Source of the DNA: Phycisphaeraceae bacterium
GTDB taxonomy: Bacteria > Planctomycetota > Phycisphaerae > Phycisphaerales > Phycisphaeraceae
Reading direction: 5' to 3'
Length of the DNA stretch: 64,000 nt
Assembly (NCBI GenBank): GCA_028284155.1
Contig: JANQSF010000069.1
Span: 1 to 64,000, forward strand
The position numbers and the translations under genes were made by a program. The notes under the pieces are model-generated. The model saw nothing but the letters and a program-made list of their open reading frames with translations. It did not search any database and was not told where the DNA came from. Positions 34,801-51,817 of the stretch are shown here, one piece after another (within the stretch, counting starts at the first letter, position 1; each line of letters begins with the position of its first letter).

Positions 34801-37800
34801 CGTGACCGTCACCAACTGGCACGTCGACTGGGGCGACGGCAACGTCGAGACACTGGCCGGTTCGGCCACCGACGCCTCCCACACCTATCCGGACGGCCCG
34901 CTGCGGCTGGCAGTTAGCGTGACGGCGGACATCGTCGGCGAGACGGAGCCCGTGGACGCGGGTCAGTTGATCGTCGATGTCGTCAACGTGGCACCGACCG
35001 TGACCGTTTCCGGCCCGACCCAGGCTTTGGCCGGAGAGACGTACACGCTCAACGTGTCAGCAACAGGCGAGGTGGGTGGTGACACGATCGAAGAGTGGAC
35101 CATCTTCTGGGGCGACGGCACGTCGGACACGTTCCTCACCGACGAAGCCACCTTCGACGTCGAGCACGTGTATCTCAGTGGCGGCGACTTTGTGATCGGC
35201 GCCGTGGTGCAGGACGACGACGGGGCATACCTTTCCAATGAACTGACGGTTTCGCTACCCGACCGGCAGATCAGTGCACCGGAAGGCGGAGCCACGGTTG
35301 ATGAGGGTTCGACGTTTACGATTTCACTCTACTCGGATGACGACCTTGAAGTGACATCGTGGGACATCGACTGGGGCGACGGCGAGCCCGCCGACACACT
35401 CGACGCGGCCAACGGCACGTTCGACCACGTGTACGCCAATGGCACGGTCGTTCGCACAATCACCGCGACGCCGAGCAGTGACACGCAGACCTATGCGGCC
35501 GTGACACTGGACGTGACGGTCAACGACGTCGCGCCCACGGCCGTCCTGTCCGGCCTGCCCATCGCCGCGCCGAATGACCCTTACACATTGAATCTCCTGT
35601 CAACTGACCCTGCGGCAGATTCATTGCGTTGGGAGATCACGGTCACCCACGACGCGACACAGAACGCGCAGAACATCACCGTCAACGACGGCAGCCCGAG
35701 TGTGGACGTGACGTTCACAGCCACCGGTGCCCACACGATCACGGCGACGGTGTACGACGACGCCGAGAGCATTTCTGTCATCGCCACCCCCGAGCATGTC
35801 GAGGTCGAGACGGCCGGCGCGGCCGTCACCGGCCCCGCGCAGTCCGATGAGGGCGAGTCCTACATTCTGGAACTTAACGCCGCCGGCTTCGTCCCCTCGC
35901 AATGGGTCATTGACTGGGGCGATGGCGTGGTACAGACCATCAACGGCCACCCCGCGCAGGTTGAGCATACCTACGCGGACGATGCGCAATCGGTGGACAT
36001 CGACGCGACAGCCTACGACGGCGCGACGCCGTACGCCGCGACCACGGTGACGATCGATGTGGAGAACGCAGCGCCAACTGTCGAGATCGAAGGCGCACCG
36101 CTGGCCCTGGTCGACGGCACGTACGACCTAGGTCTTGCCACGAACAACGTCGGTGACGACACGATCACACAGTGGACGATCGATTGGGGCGACGGCACGG
36201 TCGAGAACTTCACCCAGGAGCCGACCGCCGAGTCCCATACTTACACCAGCGCGGGAAGTTACACGATCAGTATCGACGTGACGGATGAAGACGGGACGCA
36301 CATAGACGTCGCACAACTTGCTTTGGACGCAGCCGACTTCATCGTGACGGGCCCCTCGGAAGTTGAGGAGGGGTCGCAACTCACGCTCGACGTTGCCTTC
36401 TCCGCCAACTTCACGCCCGACACGCTCGTCGTGGACTGGAAGGACGGCACGGTCGACAGCTTCGACGACACAGACGGCGACCCAAACAACGACATCCCCA
36501 CCACGCTGAGCCACACCTACGCCGACGGAACGCAGGTCTTCAGTATCGACCTGACGGCGACAGACGCGTCGAGCAACGACATTGTTCAGACGCACGACGT
36601 CACCGTCCTAGATGTGGCGCCGACCGCCACGGCATTGAGCCCCAACCGCGTGGACGAGGGGACATCGTTTGCCATCGACTTGGCCTACAGCGATGTCGGT
36701 GACGACGCTTTTGACAAGTGGGTGATCGACTGGGGTGACGGCTCAGCGACTCAAGAGATCACATCCGTCGAAGCACCCGGTGGCACAGCCAATGTGGCAC
36801 ACGCGTTCCCGGACGGGCCAGCCAACCACATCATCCGCATCAAGGCCGTCGACGCGGACGGTCTCGAAACGCTCGTCAGCGTCGATCTGGTTGCCGACCC
36901 CGACGACGTGAGCTTCGCGGGCCTCGCGGACGTGGGTCTCGGCCTCGACGCGAGAACGGTTCACAAGATTGCCGACGCGGGTGACGGCACGTACATCGTG
37001 GCCGGCTCGAACGACGTGCCGGGTGAAACATTCAACTTCGCGGTCTACCGCTTCGACGCGGACGGCAGACAACTGGACGTGTTCGACCCGGTCGATTCCG
37101 GGGGCGACGACTTTGCCAAGAGCGTAACGGTGGACAGCCAGGGCCGAGCGGTGGTGGTCGGCTACCTGACTGGAGGCGGCGACACCGACATCCTCGTGGC
37201 ACGCTACAACACGGACGGCACACTCGACACGACGTTTGACAGTGACGGCTTCGCGGTGATCGAGTTGGGCGGCAATGAGTTCGTCTACGACGTGACAACA
37301 CACGTCAACGGTGACGGCGATGACGTAATCACACTGGTCGGCGCGACGGACGTCAACGGCACGTTTGACATCGCCTTGCTGCGTCTCAACGAAGAGGGCA
37401 CGCCCGACGAACTGTTCGGCCTGAACGGCGGCGTTATCACCGACCTGACCGATACGGTCAGCGCCAACGAAGTCGGCTACGCGCTCGAGATCGACGCCGT
37501 CGGCCGAATCGTGGTCGCCGGTTCGACCTATGCGGATGCCGCCCGCGACGTCGCCCTGTTGCGCTACCACGACGACGGCTCGCTTGACGAAAGATTCGGC
37601 ACGGGCGGTTCGATCATCACCGACTTTGGTGCCACAACGGGGGGCGAGGTCGTAACGGACGTGCTGGTTGACGGAAGCCGCATCCTCGTGGCGGGCTACT
37701 CCGACACGCCTGGCATCCTGGACGACAACGCCTTCCTGTTGGCATCCTTTACTGACGATGGCGGCGTTGACACATCGTTCGGCACCGACGGCCGAGTCTT

Positions 37801-40800
37801 CGCCGACATCGGGCCTGGGCGCGACGAGGCGTTCAGTGTTTCGCTCGACAGCGACGGCCGCTTGCTCATTGCCGGCCACTCGCGACGCGCCGACAACGTA
37901 GAGCTTGACCCTGCCATCGCAAGGTTCAACCCCGATGGCACGCTCGATACAACGCTTAACGGCACGGGCATGCTGACTGGTGAGTGGTCGGGTACGGAAG
38001 ACTACACGTACGGATTAGTCCAAGGGGGGGACGGCCGATTCCTTCTACCAAGTGTTAATCCGTTCGGGGGAACCGGAGAGCCGACTATTGCGGTGTTCAC
38101 AACTCAGGGGATTTCGCAGAGTGTCGTTTTGGTTGTGGATGTGCTTCCCCAGATCCTAATCGCGGGAGACGATCAAGTAGACGAAGGGGTGTCGTATGGC
38201 TTGACACTTGTGGTGTTGGATCCTGGCCACGATCCTATGGCGGAGTGGACGGTCGACTGGGGAGATGAAGTGATTGAAACGTATCCTGGTGGTCAGACAG
38301 GCGTCAGCCATGTCTATGACGTGTCCCACTCATTAATTGATGCAGAAGGTTTTGAGATTGTCGCAACTGTCGTGGATCAAGCGGGAGGAGAAACACTCGC
38401 TTCCAAGTCGATCACGGTGGTAAATCAGTCGCCAGTTGCCCCGCATGGCTTGGTGGGCGCACTAACTGCCGACGGTGAGTACGACGTCCAACTGACTTGG
38501 CCGGCTTCAGTTCGAGCAGATGGCTACCTCGTCTATCGGAGGGTCTTGTTCGGCAATATCGAGCGGATTGGGACAGTAGGTGCAGTGGCAGAGCCCTCAT
38601 TCTTAGACGAGTACGAGAAGCTCACGCCAAGGACAGATTACGACTACTTTGTGACAACGGTGCATGCTGCACAGGAAAGCCAACCGTCCAATGTGGCGTT
38701 TGTCAAGACTAAGCCGAGAACACCGATTGCGCCAACGAATGTAGCGGGCAGTCGTCCGGAGGTTGGAACAGCCAATGTCGAATTGACATGGTCACCCGCA
38801 CCTGAGGCGCACGGTTACAGGGTGTACCGCTCCTCAGATGGCCAAGATTCCGTGTTGGTCTCAAACGGAATTGTCGAGGACACATCCTTCACTGACACTG
38901 ACCTTAGTTCGAGCATCAGATACACATACGAAGTAACCACAGTCTACTATAACTTAGAGAGTGAAACTTCTGATCAAGTGGTCGTCTTGGAGGCGCCAGA
39001 TGACATATCGCTTGAACACGACGGCACAACGATTACGATTGATTTTGCAAGTGTCCCCAATGTGGATCCTGAAGAGAGTTACCTGCTCTACCGCAACGAC
39101 GGGACGATCGAAGCTCCCGTCTGGACGGAAGTTGATCGCGTTTCTAGCAACTCGGCTGAGACATTGTTTTCCGAAGCCGGTCGAGGCGAGTACCGGGTGA
39201 CGGCCGTCCACTCTTCCGGTCCAGAGAGCTTGCTCTCGGACGCCAGCGTTCTCGTACGTATCGATAATCCGGGCACGCCAGAATCCGATAGTGATGGCGT
39301 AGATGGCACTGGCGTTCATGTCACCTGGACGGCAGTAAAAGAAGCCGACAGCTATGACCTATATCGTGACGGAGCTCTCTTTGCGGAATCGATTGTGCCT
39401 GGCGATGATGATGGGGATGGGCTACTCACGTTTAAGGATCAGTGGATCGATGGAAACAAAGCCTACGAGTATCAGGTCAAAGCGCGGCTTGAGGGTGGTG
39501 AGTCAGTCTCAAATGAGGTGGAGGCCGACGAAACTGCGCCTCTTCCGCCATTCGACGTTGTTGCCAGTCTTTCCGTCGGAGGAAGTGGCCCGTCTGTAAG
39601 CCTTTCTTGGGATGATTCTTGGACGGGAGCGTTTCGGGCTGAATACGCTAGCGATCCAGATAGCACAACGTGGACGGATTTGGAAGGCGATGTCGATGAC
39701 TTCATCGGCTACGGTGAGACTCTGTACTACCGCGTGGTGGCAATCAATGTCAACGACTTGGAGAGCCCACCGTCCAGGATTGTCAGAGTTGACGCGCCGC
39801 CACTGTTGACGGCGCCGGACCCCGTCCCCGAAGCCGCTTACATCCGTAATTTTCATTGGGCTCCGGCTAGCCAGGGAGACATCTACTGGCGGCGTGTGCC
39901 GAGGGCCGAAGGGTATCGGATCTATTGGAGAATTGACAACTCGGACGACTGGACCCAGTTGCCCGGCGGCGACGTAATAGACGATCCCACAGCGGGCCTT
40001 TGGATGTCCCTGGAAGACGTGCTGATCGACGTTGACGAAAACGATGTCGAACAACTCTTGATCATCGCGTACAACGAGGCGGGCGATAGTGTGGAGACCA
40101 TGTCTACTCCGCCTGCGAGTGATATCGATGGAACGTCCATGATTTCAACGACAACGTGGGATCCGTGTACGTCGGGCATTGTGCATGGCGGGCCAAACAG
40201 CATCGGCCTGAGAGGCCCATTCGGCAATTACGTTCGAGTCAATGATGAGGACGCAGACTGGGACGGCATACCTGATTTTGACGATTTAGATGCCCCGCAG
40301 GACTTTATGACCGACTTTGAATTGGTTTATGGAGGCTTGCCGCCTTCGGCGATGCGCGTGGACTACGACTCCGATTTTGTGCGGCTCAGACACAATGGGA
40401 CGGTTATTGGCGATGACGTTGAGTTCTCCGGTACGACTTTCAAGATCGAAGGGATCGCCCCAGCGACAAGCACTTCGCTAACGATATCGATCAAGTTGTA
40501 CGACGGAACCTGGAGGGACGATCAGATCATCGTTCCAGTAACTGTCTACGACATTAATATCAAAGAAGGTGCTGAACAGATAGTGGTGCGAGAGGGCGAT
40601 GTCGACAACGACCAGGTGCCGGACTCATCAGACGGATTCGATTGGGATCGTCGATCGACCTCCGAGGGAGAGGCGGTCGTCGATGCGGATGACGATAGTG
40701 CGGAACTACTGTCGCCCTTTGAAATAGAGGTATTGCCGGCGGGCATCTTTGGGGCTGGGAGTTTCCGAGTCGAATACAACGGCTTCGATCCGGACAATGT

Positions 40801-43800
40801 TAGTCGGGCCGCACCAGCGATAGCAGATACCGCATTCACTTTTGGTACGGATGGTGCGATTGTCCCGCAGAGTCGTTTCCGACTTTGGCAGGCGAGCGAG
40901 ATGTCGGTCGAGTCGGTTCGGGGCGGCGGCAACTACATCGTGCCAACAAAGCTCGGAGACGAATACGCTGCACCGCCCGATCAGAACAAAAGACCTGCCT
41001 TCTACAGCGCGTCAGAACTTGGTATCGGGGGGGTCACTCAGTGGTTTGGGCAAGGGACAGCGGAGGGTGGGGAGTTCTTGCGTATGCTGGTCGACCCTGA
41101 CGGGCCGGACGGCGTCCTTGATTTCTTCTCGGGTGACGCACACCGGCCGACAGTTCGCGACCGATTGGTGGCGATCGTCGATACGACTTTTGTCGCAGTC
41201 AATGACGATGACGATGACGCAGATGGCATCGTGGATTTCGCGGACTTAGATGTTGCCGCGGCCGCGAATCAATCAACTGAATTTCTGCCCTTGTATATTC
41301 CTTTGCCTTACGGCCTCTCTGATCCGGGCCGAGCCGTTTCTCATTTGCGATTCACATATAAGGAGTCGAATCCAATCAATGTGTACCCAGAGCCCGATGG
41401 AGACTATCAGTACTATCGATTGGACGGACAGGATGATATCGACGGCACATTTGACGAGGATGATGGCGCATTTCGAATCTGGACAAAACCTGAAACGGTC
41501 GCTCGTAATGCGAACAGTGACTTTATCCCAAGTCTGACCTCGGTTGATGTGTCTGGTCTTCAATCATTGAGTGACCCAGACGGTACTGGGTTGCGCGTAA
41601 TCAGAGTGTATGTGGAGTCCGTTCGTCCCTATGAATTTGCGGATGATGATCTGATAACCGTCGAATGGTCAGTCGATGAAACGATTTGGACCGGAATCGA
41701 TTTTGACGCAGAGACGCCTCAGTCGCAGTCCGAGATGACGATTGGAGCGATTTCGGGTGACCTAGTTGTCGACTCTACGAACGACAGCCAGTCAGGAAGC
41801 CATGATCCGTTGGAACCGAGCGCTGCGAAAGCCATCGCTATTGACAACCAGAATGAAATGCCACAGACCGGACAGCCAGGGCTGATTGTGGACCTTCATC
41901 GGGGCGATGCGGATGCTGACGGAATACCGGATTACGCGGACATGCTGTTACAAGCGCCGGACGATGATGAGCCACAACCGCGAGAAGACTTAACGCCGGT
42001 CGTGATCGAACTGAGGGGGTTCGATGAAGTCTCGCTAGCCGAGGCAAGGATACGTATCTCATATTCAGCTTCTGATCCAGCCGGCATACGAAAGACTGGC
42101 TCGGGAGCGAGCAATGATCCTCATATCCATCTACTTGACGGTGAGATCAGTCCTGGTGAATTCGAGGATGACGCGGGATTCCTCAGACTTTGGACAGCTA
42201 AGAACTCAACCGGGATTCCAGACGAATTGATGTTCGATCCCTTCTTTGTCGGTCAATCGACAGAAACGAGTTGGTACGTTCCTCCGACGGGATTAGAGTC
42301 TTCACGCCCATATTATGAGGCTTCGTGGCCTTCGCTAGGACTCCAGGGTAACCGAATCACCCTATTTGCAGAAGGAGTGCGCCCAAGCACAAAGATCGCA
42401 GATCAGATCATACACATCGAAGTCGATCCAGATGGAGACGGCCCGGCGTCATTCATGGCACTAGACGACGTCGCCATTACTGTGTCCCTTGGCAATCTTG
42501 CGATCGATTCAAACAATGACAGTGATGGACTGCTATTTGACCAGTCCAATGCCGCCGACGAAGCGGCCGAGGGCCGGACGGGAAGTCCAGGAAAACTGAT
42601 TTTAGTAAATGACGGCGACAAAGACGGAGATGGATTCCCTGATCTGGTGGATGGATTCACTAACAGTTTGATCCCGCCCGAGGAGTTTGAAAACGTGTCT
42701 GAGTGGCTTGTGCCGATGGTCATTGAGCTACCAGACTTTGAGGATCAGGACGCACTTGATGATGTGCGATTGAGTTTTGGCTATGACGCATCAGACCCGA
42801 ATGAGATCGGATTGCTCGATAGCGACACCATTGGGTTTACGTTGCCTGGATCACTCCGGATTTGGACCATTGGGGATGGCTTTTCGACGAGAGATGGTGA
42901 TGACTTGTCATTGGGCGGCGACTATGTTGCACCGGATACGGACTACGCTCTGGATGACTTCTTCAATGAGGTGGAACAAGGCTCAGACGGAATCCATCGC
43001 CTGAAGGTCTACGTCGAAGCAGTTCGGCCAAGTGAAACACTCGGCGATCTGTCCATTGAGGCACGGATCAAACTCAGCCCATCGGCAGAAACCGCCATTC
43101 CTTTCGACACCGTGAAGCTTACAGCCGTTCGTGCGCTTGCGGCTGATCTACAGCATGGGCCGGTGAATCTGCTAGATGGTACAGTTGAAGTCAACGAACA
43201 CGACCTACTGGCTACCAGCTTTGATATACCTTGGTCAGTATCGCGAACCTATTCCAATCGGCCAACGAACCTATCCAACGATACGCTCGGCGAGGGTTGG
43301 AGTTGGGGCTTACCCCAACTGCAGCAGATGACGAATGCGATTGTCGTCCAACAGGACGGCGCTGATTTGTTCTTTGATCTTGACAGCAGCATCGGATCGT
43401 ATAGTCCACGATTTGCCCGACTTGCTCAATTGGAGTGGGCGGCGGGGGATGATTACCGGCTGATCGATGAGAGTGGGACTCAGTGGTTGTTCAATGGTTT
43501 TGACAGTGAAGTAGCCGGACTACGGGGGACACTAAAGGAGATTACAGGCCCATCGGGCAAAGTGACCACGATACATCGCGATTCAACGAACGGCCGCATC
43601 ATGCGCGTTGATCGAGGTGATGGTCAAGAACGTTTCGTCTATCACTATTTCGACGAGAGCAGCCAGTTCGGTGGGCTGATCAGATCCGTAGCACTTGAAA
43701 GGCAGGTGCGCGCGAACGCATGGACTACGATTGGATCGGCGTCATACACATACTACGGAGACGCCGAGGACGGTGCCCCGTACGCAATGCACCGCGGATT

Positions 43801-46800
43801 GAAGCAAGTCGACACGTTCAATGCCGATGGCGTCCTAGCGGACACCAAGCTCTATCGATACTCTGCCAGCAGTAGTGGTGCGCAGCCTCGGTTGGCGCTG
43901 ATCTTTGGCAATGAGGGATTAGAGCGATTGAAATATTCAGAGTCGATCACTGCTCCGAGCGACAAGCTCAAGAAGTATGCGGATATCGAAATCATCTATC
44001 AAGAACCGGACTCAGAGGAGGCCTCCGACTACGAACGTGTGGCTACGGTACTTACCCGTGGAGGCGGAGCAAGCGTCCTTCAAGGTGATGAAGTCGATAG
44101 GCAGGCTGATACGCGGTCAAGCGCCACGTATTCCTATACCACGACGGAAGATCCCAGCATTGGCCCAAACATCTGGTATAGCGCAACGTCCGTAAATGAC
44201 CAGGCAGGTGCGGTCGCAACCACCTATGTCAACGGTGCGGGCCAACCCATGCTGTCAGTGGTTGAGGGAGCCAATGAGGTGTTTTATGACTTTACTCAGT
44301 ATGACAATCAGGGCCGTCCGATTCTGCTGGCAGACTCAACAGCGGTTAGTATCGGTAGTCTGAATCCTCATGACCTGTTGCAACAGGAACCCGACCTACT
44401 GGAGTACAGTGGAGGCCCTGGAGGCGATTATGAGCTATTACACGACGACCGTGGACTAGTAACAACACTCACCTACTTTGCAGGAGAGACGACTGCAACG
44501 TCCGGCGATCCTGGGGATGTCGACGGCCTACTGCAGTTCGTGGATATCCACCATGGTGAGTTCGGTGCGTCGATTCCGCAAGAAGACATACAGTACGTCA
44601 CGACGTCTGTCGCTGGTGTTGACATCTTCCATACCGGTTCGACAACGGCATACCGCGACACAGTGTCGCGATCTCAACAGTCGGGTATCACTACCCAATT
44701 CAAGTATGACTTTTCCCAGGCGCACATCAATTCAATTAGGACATTGCTGCCGATTGTCAGCGCTAGCGAACACGGTGATGGTACACAGGTCGTCCTCTGG
44801 GAGCAGTATGACGAATACGGTCGATTAACAGAGCAGGCTGTTGAAAGCTACCAGTCACCCGGTGACGTTGGGGTAATTCCCCCCACGGACGTACATGGGA
44901 AGGTTGCTTTTGCGTACGATGATTTTACGGGCGGCCAGACCCTTCAGTCTGTCGATCCGGATGTTCTCAATCTACGCACCAAGACTGTGTATGACGTTGA
45001 GGGCCGCCCGGTTGCTATTACTGATCCTGGCGGACTCGCAACTTCCATTCGCTACATCGACGACGTTCCTGACCGCGACCGTGCCCGCCTGGTTGAGACG
45101 ACGACCGGAACGTCTATATCGCGTGTCCTCCATGATTTACGCGATGGTGTCACTTACTCGGCGTCATATGCGCTTGATTCGGACCAGACTGCTCTAAACG
45201 GTTCACGTGAGCGTGTACTTTCGTTTGGCCGCGAAGAGTATGATCTCGGCGGTCGCGTTGTTCACCTTGATGAGTATGGCAAGGTGGTCGATGCAGATTC
45301 GTGGCGAATGTCGCCGTTTGCTGACATTACCTCTGTTACGCAAGACCTCCTGGCGAATGAAGGTGATCACCAAGGCAGCGACCGTATCATCGCCGAGCCG
45401 CTTTCCAGTGACCCATACACGCCGTTCGCGAGCCAGCCCTACTACTTCCGTACGATTCAGCGTTACGACGCGGCCGGCAATTTGGAGAGGGCGGTCAATG
45501 CCGTCGGCACACATCGTAGGACTCAGTACGACGCCCTGGGTCGCCCAACGCTCGAGCAGATTGGCTTGAGCGCGAACGAATTGTACGACGTGACAAGCTA
45601 CGAGTACGACCCCGCAGGTAACCTTGAACGTGTAACCCAACACCCCGGTGATGGGGCGCCAGATCGGGTGAGAGAGTACCTTTACGATTGGCGGGGAAGA
45701 CTGGTTGTTCGTCTTTCACCGACCGGGGGCGAGACCCATTCGTTCAACTATGGCGCGCCCCATGTTTATTTGGATTACGACAACTTGGGCAATGTCGTTG
45801 CGGAAAGCAGTTACAGCGCAACCTCTAACATCAGCCCGGCAGGAAGTGAAGACGCGCCAATCAAACCGGCCAGCGACGAACTTCGTGGCTTGGTCAGACA
45901 CCACTTCGACGCGCTGGGCCGAGAGTATCTAACGGACAGAATCGCCGTCCATCCTGTCCACAATGGAACAGAGATCGTCGGATCGGACTATGACGAAGTA
46001 GAATCGGAATCTTTGAGAACATACAGATGGTTCAATGAGAGAAGCCTGCCGATCAAGGAACAGACTCCGGGCGGTCTCTCAACGAAGATCCAGTACGATC
46101 AGGCGGGGCGCGCGACAGTCGTGTCTCTGACGGACCATGGCGCCGACTCGCCAACTGATGCAGAATCGGCGGCAAATCTGGACGGGGACATCGTGTTGCA
46201 GCAAACGCTGACGCAATACGACGCCAACGGCAACGCCCTCCTGTTAACAACACACTCGCTCCTGCCGGACAAACAGTCATCGGCATCAAGTGAAACGTGG
46301 GATCAGATAGACGCAATCGAGTTCGACGACTTCTATCGGACAAACCATGTCGCCAATTGGTTCGACAGCGAAGGCCGAAACATCGCCACGGTCAACTATG
46401 GTACGAATCCGGACGGCCTACTCGATCCGGACAACCTATTGGACCGCCCGCCCGCCCGCGACGCCGCCCACATCGACAACAAGCTTCTGTTGAGTACGAC
46501 GGAGTACGTGAACGGCACGTCGCTACCGAAGCGGACGGTCGATGCAAGAGGGGTCAGAACGGACTACAAGTACGATTCGTTGGGGCGTGTTCAACTGCGT
46601 AGCAAGGGGACGTCCGTCCACCGAGCGTTGACAGTCGACTCCGTCCGACAAGAGACAGTCTACCGCTACAACGGCATTGGCCAGATTGTTGCGGAGCGTC
46701 AAAGCACAGACGACGAGTTAACCAGTGTCCGGTACTTTGATTATGACTCGAGTCCGTATTCGAACGACTGGTTATACCGAACCGGCACAAGTAAGTTCGA

Positions 46801-49387
46801 GACGACGGATTCCGACCCGTGGGACCACGGCCTAGACGGTGTTGTCCATACAACTTACAACGCTGTGGGAGAAACAGTCTGGCGCGAAGATCGAAACAAG
46901 GTGATCCACGTCTACTCGTTTGACGCTGCCGGGCGACCGATCGGTGAGTCCGTGTTCGTGCCTTCTGAAATCAGCATGACGGCTGAGACATTCTTTGACA
47001 GCATCCCTGACGAAATCTTCTCGGATGACGAAGATTTCCTGATCGGCACAGACAATTCGATCCAGCAATTGGTGTTTGGTTTCGACGAGTTCGGTCGCCC
47101 GCGGTATTTCGCATCATATAGCTTCAACGAAACGGTCGATCCCGATGATCCTGAGCAGCCAGGCCCGGTGAGTTCAGTCATCCGCCAATACAACGGCTAC
47201 GACCAGGTCATCGCAGAAACTCAGTCCGGGCCACGGCTGGAGCAGGACGCGTACGGTGACACGTTCAGCCATGTCGTGAACTACACCTACAGCGCACCAT
47301 CTGCTCTGGCCAATCACAGCCGCCTGGTCACCATCGACTACAACACGGGGACGGGTGCGCTAAATACTGTTGTCAATCTGCAATACGACTCACCCTTGAG
47401 TGACGCGATCAGCCGTATCGACTCAATCAAGGATCAAGACCAAAACACCATTGAGACGTACCAGTACCTAGGCCTTTCCGAGATCGACAGTCGCGTGCTG
47501 CCGACGCCGGAGTTGCAGTACACACGCGTCTTGGACCGGTTCGGTCGAGTGGTTGAGGACGAATGGTCCAGTTCAACCGATCCTCAGGCGGACGCCAAGG
47601 ATCATTTCAAGTATTATCTGGACGCGAACGGCAATGTCATCGCCCGGGAGAACCTGGTCAATCCCAATTACAGCGAGCACTTCTACCGCCTCGACGCTTC
47701 GGATCGGCCGACCCGATTCATGCGAGGGAAACTCACAACCGATGCCAACGGCCTGCCGGTCATCGCCAAGCCTTGGCTGAAGTATCTGTTCCAATGGCAG
47801 GCGAACGGCTCGCCGGAAGGCTTGGCGACCGACCACCGGGGACAGCCGATCTTCAACAACATCGCGTTGCCCAGCAGTGGCGATCAGACCCGTCGACCAC
47901 GCCGCGATGACGAGACAACCCTGGCGAATGCGATGGACGCCTGGGGCCGACTCGCGGTTGCCGGTTGGGTTGAGCGTGACTTGATGTTCGACGATCTAGA
48001 ACGCGCTAACCGCTACGCATACGATGCGTTGAATCGACAGATCGGCTCATTGAACGACGGGCTCTACATAGTCTCAACCGGCGGCCAGGTGTTGATCGAA
48101 GCGGAGCCGGATGACCAGAGCAATGGAGTCGTCGCGGGTACGGTCTACATCTATTCGCCCGTCGATGGCCGATTGATCGCACGGATTCGGCCGGATGGCA
48201 GCGGCGGTGTGACGCGGCACTACGCGCTTCAGGACGCCCGTGGCAACGTTTCGGCCGTGGCAGACGCGTCAGGAACAGTTCTGGAACGCTACACCTATGC
48301 GGCATATGCAGGCGTTCTGAGTGGCCGAAATCCTGTGCGGGCATTGGACATCCGCTCGGCCAATTTCAAGCGGATCAGCCCGGACGATCCGTTCGAACCC
48401 AGTGCGATCGATTGGGTGCACACCTATCGCGGCGATCGTTACGACGTCGTGATTGACGGGTTCCACCATGCGGGCGGCAACGGTGGCCGTGCGTTTGATC
48501 TGACAACCGCGTCATTCTTACAGGCTTCTGACACAACACCAGGCCAAGTGTCATTGCAGGAGATCGCGCAGGATCTGGCTTACTACCAGCGGTGGGATAC
48601 CGGCCTGATGCTCGGGCAAATCGGCGTGGTCGTTGTCGGCGGCATCGCCATCACGTTATTGACGGGCGGCGCGGCTGCACCGCTGCTGGCGAAGGCCGGT
48701 GTGACAGGTATCGCAGCCTATGTCGGTACACAAGGAGTGTTGGCAGCCGGCGAAACGATTGTTGAAGGCGCAACGGCCAATCTTGTTGGTGACGATACCT
48801 TCAACCCGTTCACGTCATTTGCCAAGAACCTCGGCCTCAATCTGGCAACAGGTGGTATCGGTGGCGGCTTGAAAGCAGGCCGTGGGGCTGTGAGAGAACT
48901 TGGCAAGTTCGCGACACGTCAATTGATCGAGATTCCCGTTGAGACGGCTTTCGACGTGGTAACCCGTGATGTTGACGTCCAAACTGCGCTTGCCATTAAC
49001 ACGATCGGTAGCGTTGGGGGAGAGGCATTGGTCACTGGACTACGCGCGGGCGTACGAGGACTTGCAAAGAAATATGCAAAGAATCGTTGCTTCGTTGCGG
49101 GCACGCCGGTCCATCTCCAACAACTCGTAAGGCAGGGTGGATTCAGACGTCCCGAGCTTGGCGGTCTTGTGCCATTACCCTTTGTGGATGACGATTCGTT
49201 CATTTCGCGCGAAGCAGTAGCTGCCGGCGTCGCGGCATTGGGCATCCTTGGCTGGCTACATGCAGGTGGACGTCAGCGTCGCAGAGACCTGTTTGCTGTT
49301 GCGAGACGACAGCGACGTCGGATGTTGTTATGTGGCAGAGAGACATTCTGGTGGGAAATGGACAGTACAACACCTGAACAACTCTAG
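31889..49387 (+). CDS. Giant LEPR-XLL surface protein: PKD, FN3 and Rhs/YD repeats, Hint N-half
   Basis: 5832 residues; ATG preceded by GGAGG. Approximate order:
- Basic N-terminus with the LEPR-XLL-type motif FEPRILLSS (47-55), found on exported planctomycete giants.
- Delta-60-like repeats.
- Three golvesin/CBM-like repeats (214-650).
- A Calx-beta domain (652-766).
- About a dozen PKD-like units with W-DWGDG (768-1671).
- Further delta-60-like repeats (1673-2074).
- One more PKD unit, then FN3 domains (2181-2748).
- Asp-rich DxDxDGIPD calcium-type units (2781-3741).
- Rhs/YD core (from 3754) ending near HTYRGDRYDVVIDGFHHAGG.
- A hydrophobic Gly- and Ala-rich pre-toxin segment.
- RCFVAGTPV, the N-terminal motif of a Hint domain, with Cys at 5734.
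Only about 100 residues follow that motif, and no Hint C-terminal block is present. Composition becomes less GC-rich after about 38.0 kb. It is probably a cell-surface polymorphic-toxin carrier. Confidence 0.85.
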   Translation: MSFSSRLFEKARYSRFNLRQRLKRWQQRRRRRDVIRQAGRAHILDQFEPRILLSSDFVNHWPQVEATVELEDGTIVAALDSGSGDFEVAQFGADGQFAPSFGTGGRISIDIDVTWDFAASITLDENGRYVIGGFAGDSEGIGDSVSIRVLSDGTLDLTYGVAGREYHESDPAATPFTGQWGPFPTLYSLSSAAFPLAPVGGGGAMMMMGGPVTVVDDGDAGYSDVGNWEARSNVEAYQGDWRRNVKGSGTEIATWQFTDVPAGWQDVYVTWKDNTNRAVDAEYTIYDGDAATGQLEGVTDVNQTVAPDDVLYDGSWWRKLGTFDVQNGTLTVELSDDFETGTYLSGDAVRYEAAAGAPAAPTLVDDGDLDYSETGIWNPTTGTTEHYDGDKRKALRSDTATSTASWTFEDVPVGWVEVYTTWKSSTNQVTDAPYTVFDDTTALGTIDVNQQLSPSDGWFDGVQWHSLGVFEVNSESLVVELTNASDHLGVQYVIADAVRYETRTGSAAPAMLIDDGDLGFSDTGGWESKDQLDSHEDDLRRIAPGGTLESATWSFDGLAVGEYEVLATWRASSSRVTDAPFTIYDGATPITTIDVNQQVAPSDGLFNGVQWHSLGQFTITGDELNVELTNDASGGGSSWVIADAVRLEAIQVTPTVTVEATTASVDEDSASPGVFTVTLAEMVGAPVDVHYTVGGTATSVDDYAALTGTVTVPANTLTATVDVSLVDDTLFEPDETVSVSLSADAAYILGATTDAELTIIDNEPEGEATLYGAPSIEEGVEYVLNITTSDYGITGGTVDWGDGATTPIDAGVSEYLHTYADGGATYDITVLVDGDNGATYQAGNFIAEPWRRVTVTDVAPTLVEPDDTLALRDVTYTLPLAVTEPGQDTVTSWLVDFGDGSAVQQVDAPATSADHTYTAEGDYPVTVTAIDEDGSHDLAPFDITVADLKVTGASEVDEGDSYTVGLAATPGVTVTNWHVDWGDGNVETLAGSATDASHTYPDGPLRLAVSVTADIVGETEPVDAGQLIVDVVNVAPTVTVSGPTQALAGETYTLNVSATGEVGGDTIEEWTIFWGDGTSDTFLTDEATFDVEHVYLSGGDFVIGAVVQDDDGAYLSNELTVSLPDRQISAPEGGATVDEGSTFTISLYSDDDLEVTSWDIDWGDGEPADTLDAANGTFDHVYANGTVVRTITATPSSDTQTYAAVTLDVTVNDVAPTAVLSGLPIAAPNDPYTLNLLSTDPAADSLRWEITVTHDATQNAQNITVNDGSPSVDVTFTATGAHTITATVYDDAESISVIATPEHVEVETAGAAVTGPAQSDEGESYILELNAAGFVPSQWVIDWGDGVVQTINGHPAQVEHTYADDAQSVDIDATAYDGATPYAATTVTIDVENAAPTVEIEGAPLALVDGTYDLGLATNNVGDDTITQWTIDWGDGTVENFTQEPTAESHTYTSAGSYTISIDVTDEDGTHIDVAQLALDAADFIVTGPSEVEEGSQLTLDVAFSANFTPDTLVVDWKDGTVDSFDDTDGDPNNDIPTTLSHTYADGTQVFSIDLTATDASSNDIVQTHDVTVLDVAPTATALSPNRVDEGTSFAIDLAYSDVGDDAFDKWVIDWGDGSATQEITSVEAPGGTANVAHAFPDGPANHIIRIKAVDADGLETLVSVDLVADPDDVSFAGLADVGLGLDARTVHKIADAGDGTYIVAGSNDVPGETFNFAVYRFDADGRQLDVFDPVDSGGDDFAKSVTVDSQGRAVVVGYLTGGGDTDILVARYNTDGTLDTTFDSDGFAVIELGGNEFVYDVTTHVNGDGDDVITLVGATDVNGTFDIALLRLNEEGTPDELFGLNGGVITDLTDTVSANEVGYALEIDAVGRIVVAGSTYADAARDVALLRYHDDGSLDERFGTGGSIITDFGATTGGEVVTDVLVDGSRILVAGYSDTPGILDDNAFLLASFTDDGGVDTSFGTDGRVFADIGPGRDEAFSVSLDSDGRLLIAGHSRRADNVELDPAIARFNPDGTLDTTLNGTGMLTGEWSGTEDYTYGLVQGGDGRFLLPSVNPFGGTGEPTIAVFTTQGISQSVVLVVDVLPQILIAGDDQVDEGVSYGLTLVVLDPGHDPMAEWTVDWGDEVIETYPGGQTGVSHVYDVSHSLIDAEGFEIVATVVDQAGGETLASKSITVVNQSPVAPHGLVGALTADGEYDVQLTWPASVRADGYLVYRRVLFGNIERIGTVGAVAEPSFLDEYEKLTPRTDYDYFVTTVHAAQESQPSNVAFVKTKPRTPIAPTNVAGSRPEVGTANVELTWSPAPEAHGYRVYRSSDGQDSVLVSNGIVEDTSFTDTDLSSSIRYTYEVTTVYYNLESETSDQVVVLEAPDDISLEHDGTTITIDFASVPNVDPEESYLLYRNDGTIEAPVWTEVDRVSSNSAETLFSEAGRGEYRVTAVHSSGPESLLSDASVLVRIDNPGTPESDSDGVDGTGVHVTWTAVKEADSYDLYRDGALFAESIVPGDDDGDGLLTFKDQWIDGNKAYEYQVKARLEGGESVSNEVEADETAPLPPFDVVASLSVGGSGPSVSLSWDDSWTGAFRAEYASDPDSTTWTDLEGDVDDFIGYGETLYYRVVAINVNDLESPPSRIVRVDAPPLLTAPDPVPEAAYIRNFHWAPASQGDIYWRRVPRAEGYRIYWRIDNSDDWTQLPGGDVIDDPTAGLWMSLEDVLIDVDENDVEQLLIIAYNEAGDSVETMSTPPASDIDGTSMISTTTWDPCTSGIVHGGPNSIGLRGPFGNYVRVNDEDADWDGIPDFDDLDAPQDFMTDFELVYGGLPPSAMRVDYDSDFVRLRHNGTVIGDDVEFSGTTFKIEGIAPATSTSLTISIKLYDGTWRDDQIIVPVTVYDINIKEGAEQIVVREGDVDNDQVPDSSDGFDWDRRSTSEGEAVVDADDDSAELLSPFEIEVLPAGIFGAGSFRVEYNGFDPDNVSRAAPAIADTAFTFGTDGAIVPQSRFRLWQASEMSVESVRGGGNYIVPTKLGDEYAAPPDQNKRPAFYSASELGIGGVTQWFGQGTAEGGEFLRMLVDPDGPDGVLDFFSGDAHRPTVRDRLVAIVDTTFVAVNDDDDDADGIVDFADLDVAAAANQSTEFLPLYIPLPYGLSDPGRAVSHLRFTYKESNPINVYPEPDGDYQYYRLDGQDDIDGTFDEDDGAFRIWTKPETVARNANSDFIPSLTSVDVSGLQSLSDPDGTGLRVIRVYVESVRPYEFADDDLITVEWSVDETIWTGIDFDAETPQSQSEMTIGAISGDLVVDSTNDSQSGSHDPLEPSAAKAIAIDNQNEMPQTGQPGLIVDLHRGDADADGIPDYADMLLQAPDDDEPQPREDLTPVVIELRGFDEVSLAEARIRISYSASDPAGIRKTGSGASNDPHIHLLDGEISPGEFEDDAGFLRLWTAKNSTGIPDELMFDPFFVGQSTETSWYVPPTGLESSRPYYEASWPSLGLQGNRITLFAEGVRPSTKIADQIIHIEVDPDGDGPASFMALDDVAITVSLGNLAIDSNNDSDGLLFDQSNAADEAAEGRTGSPGKLILVNDGDKDGDGFPDLVDGFTNSLIPPEEFENVSEWLVPMVIELPDFEDQDALDDVRLSFGYDASDPNEIGLLDSDTIGFTLPGSLRIWTIGDGFSTRDGDDLSLGGDYVAPDTDYALDDFFNEVEQGSDGIHRLKVYVEAVRPSETLGDLSIEARIKLSPSAETAIPFDTVKLTAVRALAADLQHGPVNLLDGTVEVNEHDLLATSFDIPWSVSRTYSNRPTNLSNDTLGEGWSWGLPQLQQMTNAIVVQQDGADLFFDLDSSIGSYSPRFARLAQLEWAAGDDYRLIDESGTQWLFNGFDSEVAGLRGTLKEITGPSGKVTTIHRDSTNGRIMRVDRGDGQERFVYHYFDESSQFGGLIRSVALERQVRANAWTTIGSASYTYYGDAEDGAPYAMHRGLKQVDTFNADGVLADTKLYRYSASSSGAQPRLALIFGNEGLERLKYSESITAPSDKLKKYADIEIIYQEPDSEEASDYERVATVLTRGGGASVLQGDEVDRQADTRSSATYSYTTTEDPSIGPNIWYSATSVNDQAGAVATTYVNGAGQPMLSVVEGANEVFYDFTQYDNQGRPILLADSTAVSIGSLNPHDLLQQEPDLLEYSGGPGGDYELLHDDRGLVTTLTYFAGETTATSGDPGDVDGLLQFVDIHHGEFGASIPQEDIQYVTTSVAGVDIFHTGSTTAYRDTVSRSQQSGITTQFKYDFSQAHINSIRTLLPIVSASEHGDGTQVVLWEQYDEYGRLTEQAVESYQSPGDVGVIPPTDVHGKVAFAYDDFTGGQTLQSVDPDVLNLRTKTVYDVEGRPVAITDPGGLATSIRYIDDVPDRDRARLVETTTGTSISRVLHDLRDGVTYSASYALDSDQTALNGSRERVLSFGREEYDLGGRVVHLDEYGKVVDADSWRMSPFADITSVTQDLLANEGDHQGSDRIIAEPLSSDPYTPFASQPYYFRTIQRYDAAGNLERAVNAVGTHRRTQYDALGRPTLEQIGLSANELYDVTSYEYDPAGNLERVTQHPGDGAPDRVREYLYDWRGRLVVRLSPTGGETHSFNYGAPHVYLDYDNLGNVVAESSYSATSNISPAGSEDAPIKPASDELRGLVRHHFDALGREYLTDRIAVHPVHNGTEIVGSDYDEVESESLRTYRWFNERSLPIKEQTPGGLSTKIQYDQAGRATVVSLTDHGADSPTDAESAANLDGDIVLQQTLTQYDANGNALLLTTHSLLPDKQSSASSETWDQIDAIEFDDFYRTNHVANWFDSEGRNIATVNYGTNPDGLLDPDNLLDRPPARDAAHIDNKLLLSTTEYVNGTSLPKRTVDARGVRTDYKYDSLGRVQLRSKGTSVHRALTVDSVRQETVYRYNGIGQIVAERQSTDDELTSVRYFDYDSSPYSNDWLYRTGTSKFETTDSDPWDHGLDGVVHTTYNAVGETVWREDRNKVIHVYSFDAAGRPIGESVFVPSEISMTAETFFDSIPDEIFSDDEDFLIGTDNSIQQLVFGFDEFGRPRYFASYSFNETVDPDDPEQPGPVSSVIRQYNGYDQVIAETQSGPRLEQDAYGDTFSHVVNYTYSAPSALANHSRLVTIDYNTGTGALNTVVNLQYDSPLSDAISRIDSIKDQDQNTIETYQYLGLSEIDSRVLPTPELQYTRVLDRFGRVVEDEWSSSTDPQADAKDHFKYYLDANGNVIARENLVNPNYSEHFYRLDASDRPTRFMRGKLTTDANGLPVIAKPWLKYLFQWQANGSPEGLATDHRGQPIFNNIALPSSGDQTRRPRRDDETTLANAMDAWGRLAVAGWVERDLMFDDLERANRYAYDALNRQIGSLNDGLYIVSTGGQVLIEAEPDDQSNGVVAGTVYIYSPVDGRLIARIRPDGSGGVTRHYALQDARGNVSAVADASGTVLERYTYAAYAGVLSGRNPVRALDIRSANFKRISPDDPFEPSAIDWVHTYRGDRYDVVIDGFHHAGGNGGRAFDLTTASFLQASDTTPGQVSLQEIAQDLAYYQRWDTGLMLGQIGVVVVGGIAITLLTGGAAAPLLAKAGVTGIAAYVGTQGVLAAGETIVEGATANLVGDDTFNPFTSFAKNLGLNLATGGIGGGLKAGRGAVRELGKFATRQLIEIPVETAFDVVTRDVDVQTALAINTIGSVGGEALVTGLRAGVRGLAKKYAKNRCFVAGTPVHLQQLVRQGGFRRPELGGLVPLPFVDDDSFISREAVAAGVAALGILGWLHAGGRQRRRDLFAVARRQRRRMLLCGRETFWWEMDSTTPEQL
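32528..33836 (+). repeat. Three golvesin/CBM-like protein repeats
   Basis: Within the giant gene, three units of about 145 codons each begin VDDGD or IDDGD. They share a W-SF-D-V core (ATWQFTDVPAGWQDVYVTWK in the first), a DVNQ(T/Q)V segment and an A-VRYE end. They encode carbohydrate-binding-like modules. Confidence 0.7.
34190..36900 (+). repeat. Tandem PKD-like repeat array
   Basis: Roughly twelve units of 70-90 codons within the giant gene. Each carries a variant of (V/I)DWGDG and a following (H/V)TY. Adjacent units alternate between two subtypes, which suggests duplication of pairs. PKD domains act as extracellular spacers. Confidence 0.75.
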
Positions 49388-49451
49388 GCGAATCATGGAT
49401 ACTGACTGAGTCTTCATATACTGTGAATGAAGCATTAAACAGGAGTGCATT

Positions 49452-50666
49452 GTGCAATACCCAGTCACAACCTCTAAACTAATGGTACTTGGTGGCCACT
49501 CAGCTATGACCTATGGCCGAACCCTTCTTCTCGTGCTGAGCCTTGTTGTTGCTGGCATTGTGATGTGGCGGCCGGGGACAGGCAATTCTGTGGATGAGGC
49601 AACGGTGGCCTTGCTCGGGGTTGACTCCACGCACGACAGGCAGGTCGGCCCCCGTACGGAGGCTATTGAGACCGTTCGTCTTGGCATGCGTGTGCGTGGT
49701 CGTAATCCATTGTTTACCGACCGTGAACGTGCCTCTTGGCAGGAGCCCGATTTCTCGTCTTGGCGGGCCGTTTCGCTGACGATGAGGAAGTCGAATGGCG
49801 GCCAGTTGGACGTCCGACTGCTGCGTCCGGCGTCCTGGCTGGCGCGCCAGAATGCGGAAGTTGGGTCAACTGTCGAGCTCGATCTTCCAGAGATGGGGGC
49901 ATCGGGTCCGGCGCTGGTGACTGTAATCGAAGACGCGCCGCCGATCGAGGAACGAGCGGAAATCGACGGTGGCAGCGTGGTGACGGGTCGGTTCGCTCAC
50001 ACTTCCGGGGCCGACGAACAGTTGGTGTCATTGCATGTCGAGGATGGCAACGAGCCGATCACGGGTACGAGCAACCACCCGTTTTGGAGCGAGGACCGTC
50101 AGGCGTTCGTCGAGGCGGGCGAACTCAAGCCTGGCGAGCGTGTGCGGACGGCACACGTCGGAGTCGTGCGTGTGACCAAGACGGAACGTGGACCGCCAGC
50201 CTCGCGTCGGGTGTACAATCTGGAGGTGTACGGGGAGCATGTGTACTGGGTGGGAAGCCAGGGCGTGCTTGTACACAACAATTGCCACCTTGTCCCACTA
50301 ACAGCAGGTGATGATGGCGTTGTGGTGGCCGGAAGGGTGATAGTAAGGAGATTCGATTCTAAACAAAAAATCAAGCGCGCTAAAAAGCATGGCATAGCAA
50401 TCGATCCCAACATGGCACCCGACCGTACACCAGCCATTCCAACAACTACAACGAGTATAGATCCCGTGAACCCCAACACGATTAGAAAATTGACTGCTGC
50501 TCAAAGGATCGAGGCATTCATTGATATCGATGTCACTGGCAAGCGACTCCTTGTTACCAAGACGAAAGCTGGTGTTACGGAGATACGCGTACTAGATGAC
50601 ATTGATGCAAGTGATATCGTCAATAGTGGCAGGGTTCGCAAGTCGCGGTTGTCAACCGAGGACTAG
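49452..50666 (+). CDS. Hint C-half with N-terminal membrane segment and C-terminal toxin-like tip
   Basis: 404 residues. GTG at 49452 has AGGAG six nt upstream, and an in-frame TGA at 49428 closes the frame, so this is a separate gene 64 bp after the giant one and in another frame. A hydrophobic helix (TLLLVLSLVVAGIVMW, about residues 24-39) precedes a beta-rich domain with SNHPFWSEDRQAFVEAGELK (His209) and VYNLEVYGEHVYWVGSQGVL. This is the C-terminal Hint block, ending in VHNNC (H275, N276, N277, C278). The N-terminal Hint Cys motif is missing here but ends the preceding protein. Residues 278-404 form an unrecognised, less GC-rich tip with FDSKQKIKRAKKHGIAIDPN and RIEAFIDIDVTGKRLLVTKT. Its position is that of a polymorphic toxin. 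Confidence 0.8.
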   Translation: MQYPVTTSKLMVLGGHSAMTYGRTLLLVLSLVVAGIVMWRPGTGNSVDEATVALLGVDSTHDRQVGPRTEAIETVRLGMRVRGRNPLFTDRERASWQEPDFSSWRAVSLTMRKSNGGQLDVRLLRPASWLARQNAEVGSTVELDLPEMGASGPALVTVIEDAPPIEERAEIDGGSVVTGRFAHTSGADEQLVSLHVEDGNEPITGTSNHPFWSEDRQAFVEAGELKPGERVRTAHVGVVRVTKTERGPPASRRVYNLEVYGEHVYWVGSQGVLVHNNCHLVPLTAGDDGVVVAGRVIVRRFDSKQKIKRAKKHGIAIDPNMAPDRTPAIPTTTTSIDPVNPNTIRKLTAAQRIEAFIDIDVTGKRLLVTKTKAGVTEIRVLDDIDASDIVNSGRVRKSRLSTED

Positions 50667-50669
50667 ATT

Positions 50670-51098
50670 GTGAAGTCTGCGATTCAACAACTAGCGGATT
50701 ACGGCGATCAGGAACATTGGTCGTCTGTGCCATTGGTTGCAGTTCATCCGTTGTCTGATCAGATCGACCTATTGAACCGGCTTGGCATCTCATCGAATGA
50801 TTGTATCCGATGCGATTGCTACGTTGTGCTTGGCGGCGAACTCATTTTTATGGAAATCGAAGCAGTGCGAGATAAGCCTGCTCGAGTGTGGCATCTGTGG
50901 CGACACGACGTTGTTCCTGCAAATGTGTTTTCAATCACCACTCATGAGTGTCCATTGAGGACGCAGTCTGTCACATTAGCTGTCAACACCTTGGCCAATT
51001 GGATTCAAGAACATGCATTGGTACTAGTGAATGGACCGCCTAAACCTCAATGTATCATTCAGAGAGATATTTGCATCCGAGGTAATCACGGTCAGTGA
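50670..51098 (+). CDS. Candidate immunity protein for the adjacent toxin tip
   Basis: 142 residues, beginning GTG 3 bp after the stop of the Hint-toxin gene. No signal peptide or membrane segment; mixed alpha/beta with YVVLGGELIFMEIEAVRDKP and RVWHLWRHDVVPANVF. Several Cys (DCIRCDC) lie near residue 45. Immunity proteins of Rhs-type toxins are small, cytoplasmic and encoded directly after the toxin, which fits. No family recognised, so the role is inferred from position only. The gene is less GC-rich than its downstream neighbours, as the toxin tip is. Confidence 0.6.
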   Translation: MKSAIQQLADYGDQEHWSSVPLVAVHPLSDQIDLLNRLGISSNDCIRCDCYVVLGGELIFMEIEAVRDKPARVWHLWRHDVVPANVFSITTHECPLRTQSVTLAVNTLANWIQEHALVLVNGPPKPQCIIQRDICIRGNHGQ

Positions 51099-51726: not shown

Positions 51727-51817
51727 CGCCGCCTCGGAATCAGGTAGACTGGACGAAGTGTCATCGGGGTGTGTGGTCTTCCGGTGCGGGCTTGATTGCT
51801 TGTCGATGGAGCTTCCT

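Follow-up and report, generated by a model that had tools for sequence, protein, structure and literature searches.

Hint domains of the PT-HINT or A-type bacterial intein-like (BIL) class (PF07591) stand before the variable C-terminal region of polymorphic toxins and, in passages of Zhang et al. (2012, PMC3482391), are thought to free the toxin; A-type BIL domains are described in parts of a review (PMC7765530) as able to cleave and unable to ligate. Engineered split inteins of the S1 type have, according to sections of PMC3620165, an N-piece of 11-12 aa; some of them splice in trans, and some of their C-inteins cleave without splicing or spontaneously. The N-pieces of natural atypically split inteins are given as about 15-25 aa in portions of PMC11923092. 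Orphan cdiA-CT/cdiI modules of contact-dependent inhibition (CDI) systems and Rhs cassettes form arrays with constant starts, variable ends and intervening small open reading frames (ORFs), and translation start signals are said to be mostly missing from the CDI orphans in the relevant part of PMC3150448. Here we describe a locus of a Phycisphaeraceae bacterium (GCA_028284155.1) in which a Hint domain is divided between two consecutive genes, a giant "launcher" gene (ORF1) and a small "cassette" gene (ORF2). The window analysed is a stretch of 64,000 nucleotides (contig JANQSF010000069.1, positions 1 to 64,000). The locus is like the PT-HINT/BIL domains in its Hint fold, its catalytic Cys, TxxH and His-Asn, and its position before a variable C-terminal region; it differs from them in a predicted two-segment membrane insert that interrupts the Hint after ~10 residues, and in the two-gene arrangement of the split form.

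ORF1 (31889..49387, + strand, as for all features below) encodes a protein of 5832 aa with matches to golvesin-C, PKD, Calx-beta, fn3, DUF5122 and RHS-repeat domains. It stops just past an N-terminal Hint piece, CFVAGTPVHLQ (49088..49120), which contains the catalytic Cys (codon 49088-49090) and corresponds to the opening ~11 residues of the Hint/intein fold. From this block the final 99 residues of ORF1 continue through a hydrophobic segment (TM1, for transmembrane; AVAAGVAALGILGWLHA, 49214..49264, from hydropathy and Lys/Arg counts), a basic GRQRRR and a short basic tail (49265..49387), probably cytoplasmic, to the TAG at 49385. An earlier description of this DNA, made without database searches (hereafter the sequence-only reading), had the recognisable part of the giant protein end at CFVAGTPV. 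The Cys block is indeed there, but the 91 residues that follow it include the hydrophobic segment and the basic stretch. A Pfam search of the ORF1 tail found no family. A profile built from related N-halves matched the tail at 5.1e-20, a partly circular value, the window being one of the 17 profile rows. A match of the tail in genome G327, one of two genomes matched among 392 of the phylum (the other being the window's own), was dropped as a chance match: the Cys block was outside it and no Hint motif was found in the ORFs listed at that locus.

The remainder of the Hint domain is in ORF2 (49452..50666, 404 aa), which is in a different frame from ORF1. Its GTG start (49452) is preceded at 6 nt by an AGGAG Shine-Dalgarno (SD) sequence (49441..49445). 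The protein has an N-terminal signal-anchor-like segment (TM2, TLLLVLSLVVAGIVMW, 49521..49568; a helix at residues 20-38 in the model described below) and, at residues 67-276 (49650..50279), the Hint C-half, which ends with the catalytic His-Asn. This half contains the motifs NHPFW, EHVYWVGSQGVL and VHNNC (fuller span TSNHPFW to VYNLEVYGEHVYWVGSQGVLVHN). PF07591 matched it over profile positions 44-137 of 137 (E 3.2e-10, 40.8 bits versus a curated cut-off of 27.7), and this was the sole match of that family at E <= 0.001 across the 7.2 Mb assembly. The catalytic Cys and the catalytic His-Asn are therefore not on one polypeptide, and each half comes with its own predicted membrane anchor. In all this, the division over two genes and frames as well as the start signal and membrane segment of the second gene, the sequence-only reading was borne out. 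The last ~128 aa of ORF2 (50280..50663) are presumed, from their position, to be the toxin; a family search with this region found no recognised family.

A recent disruption of a normally unbroken gene, or an assembly error, could be considered, as the host assembly has 161 contigs, of which the window is contig 159, and as unbroken homologues exist (23 "fused-long" ORFs). However, the first stop in the ORF1 frame is at 49385 and the last stop in the ORF2 frame at 49428, so that no single indel could merge the two frames. Furthermore, the SD of ORF2 is well spaced, and the identical split was found at eleven other loci, some of them in isolates. Because of the indel test and of the splits elsewhere, we rejected a recent break or a sequencing error as the main explanation and consider it highly improbable. 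The same division in relatives makes the locus look like a real two-part device, not a broken gene.

The other split loci were found with a scan for the combination of Cys, TM1 and basic stretch. Among its 36 rows, the C-half was in the same chain in 24 (including L117) and absent from it in 11, which represent 10 distinct loci, L084 and L165 being one and the same. In the remaining row, L074 (genome G288), the launcher breaks after TM2 and the locus was not counted as split; nor were L152 (degenerate Cys block, contig edge) and L194 (no C-half seen). At the 10 distinct loci the N-half stops 70-132 residues from the Cys, and the Hint C-half, along with a hydrophobic segment, is encoded by a separate ORF that comes next. 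L097, L115 and L124 are among them, as the C-half listed for these loci is upstream of the Cys. This second stretch matching the C-half profile, 395-417 aa ahead of the Cys in the three launchers, is perhaps an older Hint copy or a remnant. A family survey, in which the N-half was matched in 33 of 160 genomes and the matches fetched as loci were inspected, added two further splits, L189 and L192, bringing the total to 12 distinct loci with the window included. L189 belongs to the same genus as G351; its cassette is of another Hint subtype and the launcher bodies differ. Carriers of the split include the single-contig genome G351, the TBK1r chromosome, Rhodopirellula sp. SM50, Stieleria sedimenti and Roseiconus nitratireducens. 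The similarly divided homologues that the sequence-only reading had proposed to look for do exist, and close homologues are not all unbroken, as both forms occur. In genome G837, additional cassette pieces were seen downstream of the split launcher (L201:6288-12931), two of them with near-identical TM2 and differing C-termini.

Purifying selection on both parts was established in one species pair. Between SM50 and S. sedimenti, the ratio of nonsynonymous to synonymous substitution rates (dN/dS) was 0.15 from the Cys to the stop of the launcher and 0.145 for its last 48 residues, while it amounted to 0.145 for the cassette and to 0.32 for the first 70 residues of the latter. TBK1r shares the split with these two species, at 45-48% identity and with a saturated dS (over 1). 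In a tree of C-halves, the three belong to a supported clade that consists of 13 separate forms and contains no fused one. Another is made up of 8 cassettes from genomes G421 and G288; fused and separate forms are intermixed elsewhere. Several branches of this tree are long and its bootstrap is not settled.

The unbroken relatives show what has been divided. In them, one chain runs from the Cys block through TM1, a Lys/Arg-rich stretch, a loop and TM2 to the remaining Hint, and we propose from this order that a two-helix membrane hairpin is inserted ~10 residues past the catalytic Cys. The AlphaFold2 model of one such relative, L126 (13 sequences, mean predicted local distance difference test score (pLDDT) 70), comprised a confident Hint core, of which the Cys strand is part, as well as a pair of long helices (45-76 and 134-160) and, between them, a loop of low confidence (78-133). 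Its best match among solved structures was the C. thermocellum BIL domain (2lwy; Z 17.3, 137 aligned residues, 2.0 Å, 36% identity), and the aligned ranges equate C13 with intein residue 1 and N384 with the last residue. As the Hint halves of the window lie on two chains, the placement of Cys1 and of the terminal Asn is modelled on this fused relative. The model of the window's ORF2 (20 sequences, mean pLDDT 69) was good for the Hint C-half. Residues 67-276 could be aligned with solved inteins as far as the final intein residue; the alignment began at residue 12-14 of the intein for the top rows (some of the lower rows at 16-23, one at 7); with 2lwy, the match covered residues 12-135 (Z 11.8, 122 aligned, 2.2 Å). 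In this model, the split removes just the first strand from ORF2, and the absent residues, ~11 as judged from the start in the top rows, are the CFVAGTPVHLQ of ORF1. The two separately encoded pieces together cover the modelled fold, like those of a split intein, and the predicted cut is at the S1 place, with the first nucleophile on a short N-piece and most of the fold on a long C-piece, as in the inteins described in the sections of PMC3620165 mentioned above. Unlike in these, both halves have predicted membrane anchors, and some genomes have many C-pieces per N-piece.

Lys and Arg were more numerous before than after TM2 in 40 of 56 cassettes, with 5 ties, and in 18 of the 21 fused forms, with 1 tie. 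This suggests that the Hint is on the outer side of the membrane and the loop on the cytoplasmic side. The excess of Lys/Arg that follows TM1 had served to select the loci, and by itself proves nothing. In 20 full-length cassettes (the window and 19 of 29 candidates), T206, H209, H263 and N276 were invariant, and H275 was conserved in at least 90%. Because cassettes that lack the Cys have retained these residues, they look catalytic.

The C-half profile matched 172 ORFs in 99 loci and the window's own locus. Of these ORFs, 23 were fused-long and 10 fused-plain, the latter lacking a long insert; 52 were separate, having TM2 and no Cys, a count that takes in the window and one duplicate. A further 13 had no transmembrane segment, 48 were fragments, 6 stood at contig edges and 20 were classed as other. 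The complete genome G421 had 25 C-half matches, one near-complete N-half, present in a fused protein, and one N-half fragment of 37 positions. Fifteen of its cassettes have TM2, one of them without its start Met. Thirteen cassettes with one N-terminal pattern share the start, TM2 and the Hint C-half and display about ten C-terminal beginnings, some of them shared and two cut short. They have, in other words, the constant N-terminal and variable C-terminal regions of polymorphic toxins, and the "exchangeable cartridge" of the sequence-only reading holds as far as anatomy is concerned. That reading was correct on the division, but had overlooked the insert formed by TM1 and TM2, the existence of fused relatives and the tandem arrangement of cassettes. 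Pairs of the 13 G421 cassettes had a dN/dS of 0.15 in the first 25 codons and of 0.11 in the C-half. Small ORFs stand between the tandem cassettes of the G421 array. A small ORF also follows the cassette of the window: ORF3 (50670..51098, 142 aa) begins 3 nt past the ORF2 stop and is presumed from its position to be the immunity gene; its family search gave no match.

These arrays raise the possibility that cassettes are a silent store, comparable to the CDI/Rhs orphan modules and useful only once recombined behind a launcher, the split launchers being those that have lost their C-half. In line with this, tandem cassettes with small ORFs in between are much alike within a genome, fused and separate C-halves of one genome often group on the tree, which suggests exchange, most cassettes do not adjoin a launcher, certain ones are decayed or have no start, and an SD was found at just 5 of the 12 split loci (the window, L078, L084, L100 and L150). 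However, whereas the CDI orphans are mostly devoid of start signals according to the part of PMC3150448 cited above, 60 of 64 distinct cassettes had an in-frame start codon before the export/anchor segment TM2 (53 ATG, 2 GTG, 3 TTG and 2 reassigned), and the border of the module is inside the Hint. The 2 reassigned cassettes had been scored "none" by the script, which mistook an upstream hydrophobic stretch for TM2, yet an ATG is seen in both. ORF2 of the window, with its GTG and AGGAG, does not have the character of a toxin fragment without start signals. SD sites were also enriched: 22 of 64 cassettes had a start with an SD before TM2, versus 6.9 expected, and 12 had an SD of at least 5 nt, versus 2.2 expected. 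These expectations come from shuffles of the upstream 20 nt and replace an earlier control (2.4 expected). Among nine launcher-cassette pairs, including L074, which is not counted as split, the SD was present in 5 versus 1.05 expected; L104, L134, L189 and L192 were looked at separately and had none. In nine cassettes (8 from G421 and 1 from G288), the start codon is where the similarity shared by the whole set sets in, three of them sharing upstream sequence too. Moreover, purifying selection acts on the one launcher tail that was tested, and the near-complete launcher of G421 appears by eye to be unlike the cassettes of that genome in TM2 and Hint. For these reasons, we think it unlikely that the cassettes are only a store. 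We do not claim that C-halves are expressed from internal starts of fused genes (n=22), for which synonymous-codon shuffles gave 9 observed versus 5.3 expected (P 0.03) and, with a strict SD, 5 versus 2.5 (P 0.08); an earlier control (1.0 expected) was not composition-matched.

The reading that we favour, and hold to be probable, is that of a natural split Hint that serves in a polymorphic toxin system: its two pieces would come together in trans on the outer side of the membrane and then release, or possibly ligate, the toxin. In the mechanism that we infer, from membrane topology and expression to trans assembly, cleavage and toxicity, the split form would correspond to a chain cut within the cytoplasmic loop of the membrane hairpin. 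The giant protein would retain the Cys, TM1 and the basic tail, and the separately translated cassette would bring TM2, the remaining Hint and the toxin, its gene being followed by the presumed immunity gene. Launcher and cassette protein would meet at the outer face of the membrane, where the short Cys strand would complete the Hint fold; Asn cyclisation would then free the toxin or, less surely, join it to the stalk. One launcher could in this way use different cassettes. Release of the toxin only when both proteins meet is plausible, though unproved: the large half may be able to cleave by itself.

Several observations weigh against a system of this kind. Four of the 64 cassettes have no start codon before TM2, and no SD was found at L097, L104, L115, L124, L134, L189 and L192 (7 of the 12 split loci), several split loci coming moreover from metagenome-assembled genomes. 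Nothing N-half-like was detected within ~1.5 kb upstream of 46 of 67 cassettes, some of which are near contig ends. No N-half was found in 3 of the 14 genomes having C-halves. G359 (210 contigs) has 22 C-half matches without an N-half, and the only near-complete N-half of G421 is that of the fused protein whose TM2 and Hint differ by eye from the cassettes. Finally, the N-piece may be dispensable for cleavage, because some engineered S1 C-inteins cleave spontaneously or without splicing.

The last point also bears on the idea that the cassettes are independent membrane-anchored toxins, exported by means of TM2 and freed by Asn cyclisation in the C-half without any Cys piece, the ORF1 tail being irrelevant. 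Cassettes do have their own start, TM2 and C-terminal region, many are distant from any launcher, and some engineered S1 C-inteins, as presented in PMC3620165, cleave spontaneously. This idea, however, does not account for the purifying selection on the Cys, TM1 and tail of a split launcher immediately ahead of a cassette, nor for the fact that precisely the first strand is lacking. We consider it quite unlikely.

As to the fate of the toxin, the +1 residue was Ser, Thr or Cys in 37 of 99 relatives of all classes only, unlike in S1 split inteins. Trans-splicing as a general outcome is not supported by this residue, and ligation to the stalk, though possible, is for that reason less likely in general. 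Splicing or ligation by BIL domains lacking the C-flanking nucleophile has reportedly been observed, to judge from article titles cited in PMC4031507. A bolder proposal, which we find doubtful, is that a membrane-anchored split intein-like system arms the giant surface protein after translation: any cassette would join the ~11-residue Cys strand in trans, toxins would be released or ligated, and the warhead would be chosen at the protein level and not by recombination.

The distribution of ORF2 relatives is patchy. Counting the window's own genome, they were found in 4 out of 61 near genomes, in 32 out of 400 genomes from the order and in 55 out of 392 from the phylum. Among the near genomes, the 36 others belonging to the window's family yielded no C-half match. 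The closest relative in the phylum search (50% identity) is within a 10,696-aa ORF of G106. A third Hint cassette region of the latter genome (L069:5958-7079) has a TAA within the C-half and is probably decaying. Plasmid records gave 72 matches, with identity below 60% in the 20 listed. No relative was confirmed in viral contigs, where a single-protein query detects close relatives only. A C-half-like Hint on the contig of L159, binned as Myxococcota (IP29b_bin.29), is possibly due to a binning error, there being a planctomycete bin with the same sample prefix.

In the surroundings of the locus, a protein kinase with WD40-like repeats is encoded ~3.5 kb upstream of the giant gene (25455-28385), and a 960-aa ORF with a HEAT-repeat match over cut-off is present downstream of the cassette (51758-54640). 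The start of ORF1 (31889-32200) encodes a very basic stretch and the motif FEPRILLSSD. We take the latter to resemble the LEPR-XLL start of planctomycete surface proteins.

PT-HINT domains, split inteins and orphan toxin cassettes are all known. As far as titles and the beginnings of abstracts show, what is new is their combination, a membrane-insert Hint with a natural division at the S1 place and with anchored cassettes that have starts of their own: in open-licence PMC articles on split or orphan Hint toxins, planctomycete toxins and split inteins, no split Hint in a toxin was reported at that level among the matches listed. If the arrangement is as we propose, it would represent natural S1-type splits on membrane-anchored partners, outside the cytoplasm, and a source of split inteins with a short N-piece. 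Should the halves act in trans, polymorphic toxins could swap warheads without DNA rearrangement, and it would become testable why some planctomycetes have rows of toxin cassettes but a single launcher.

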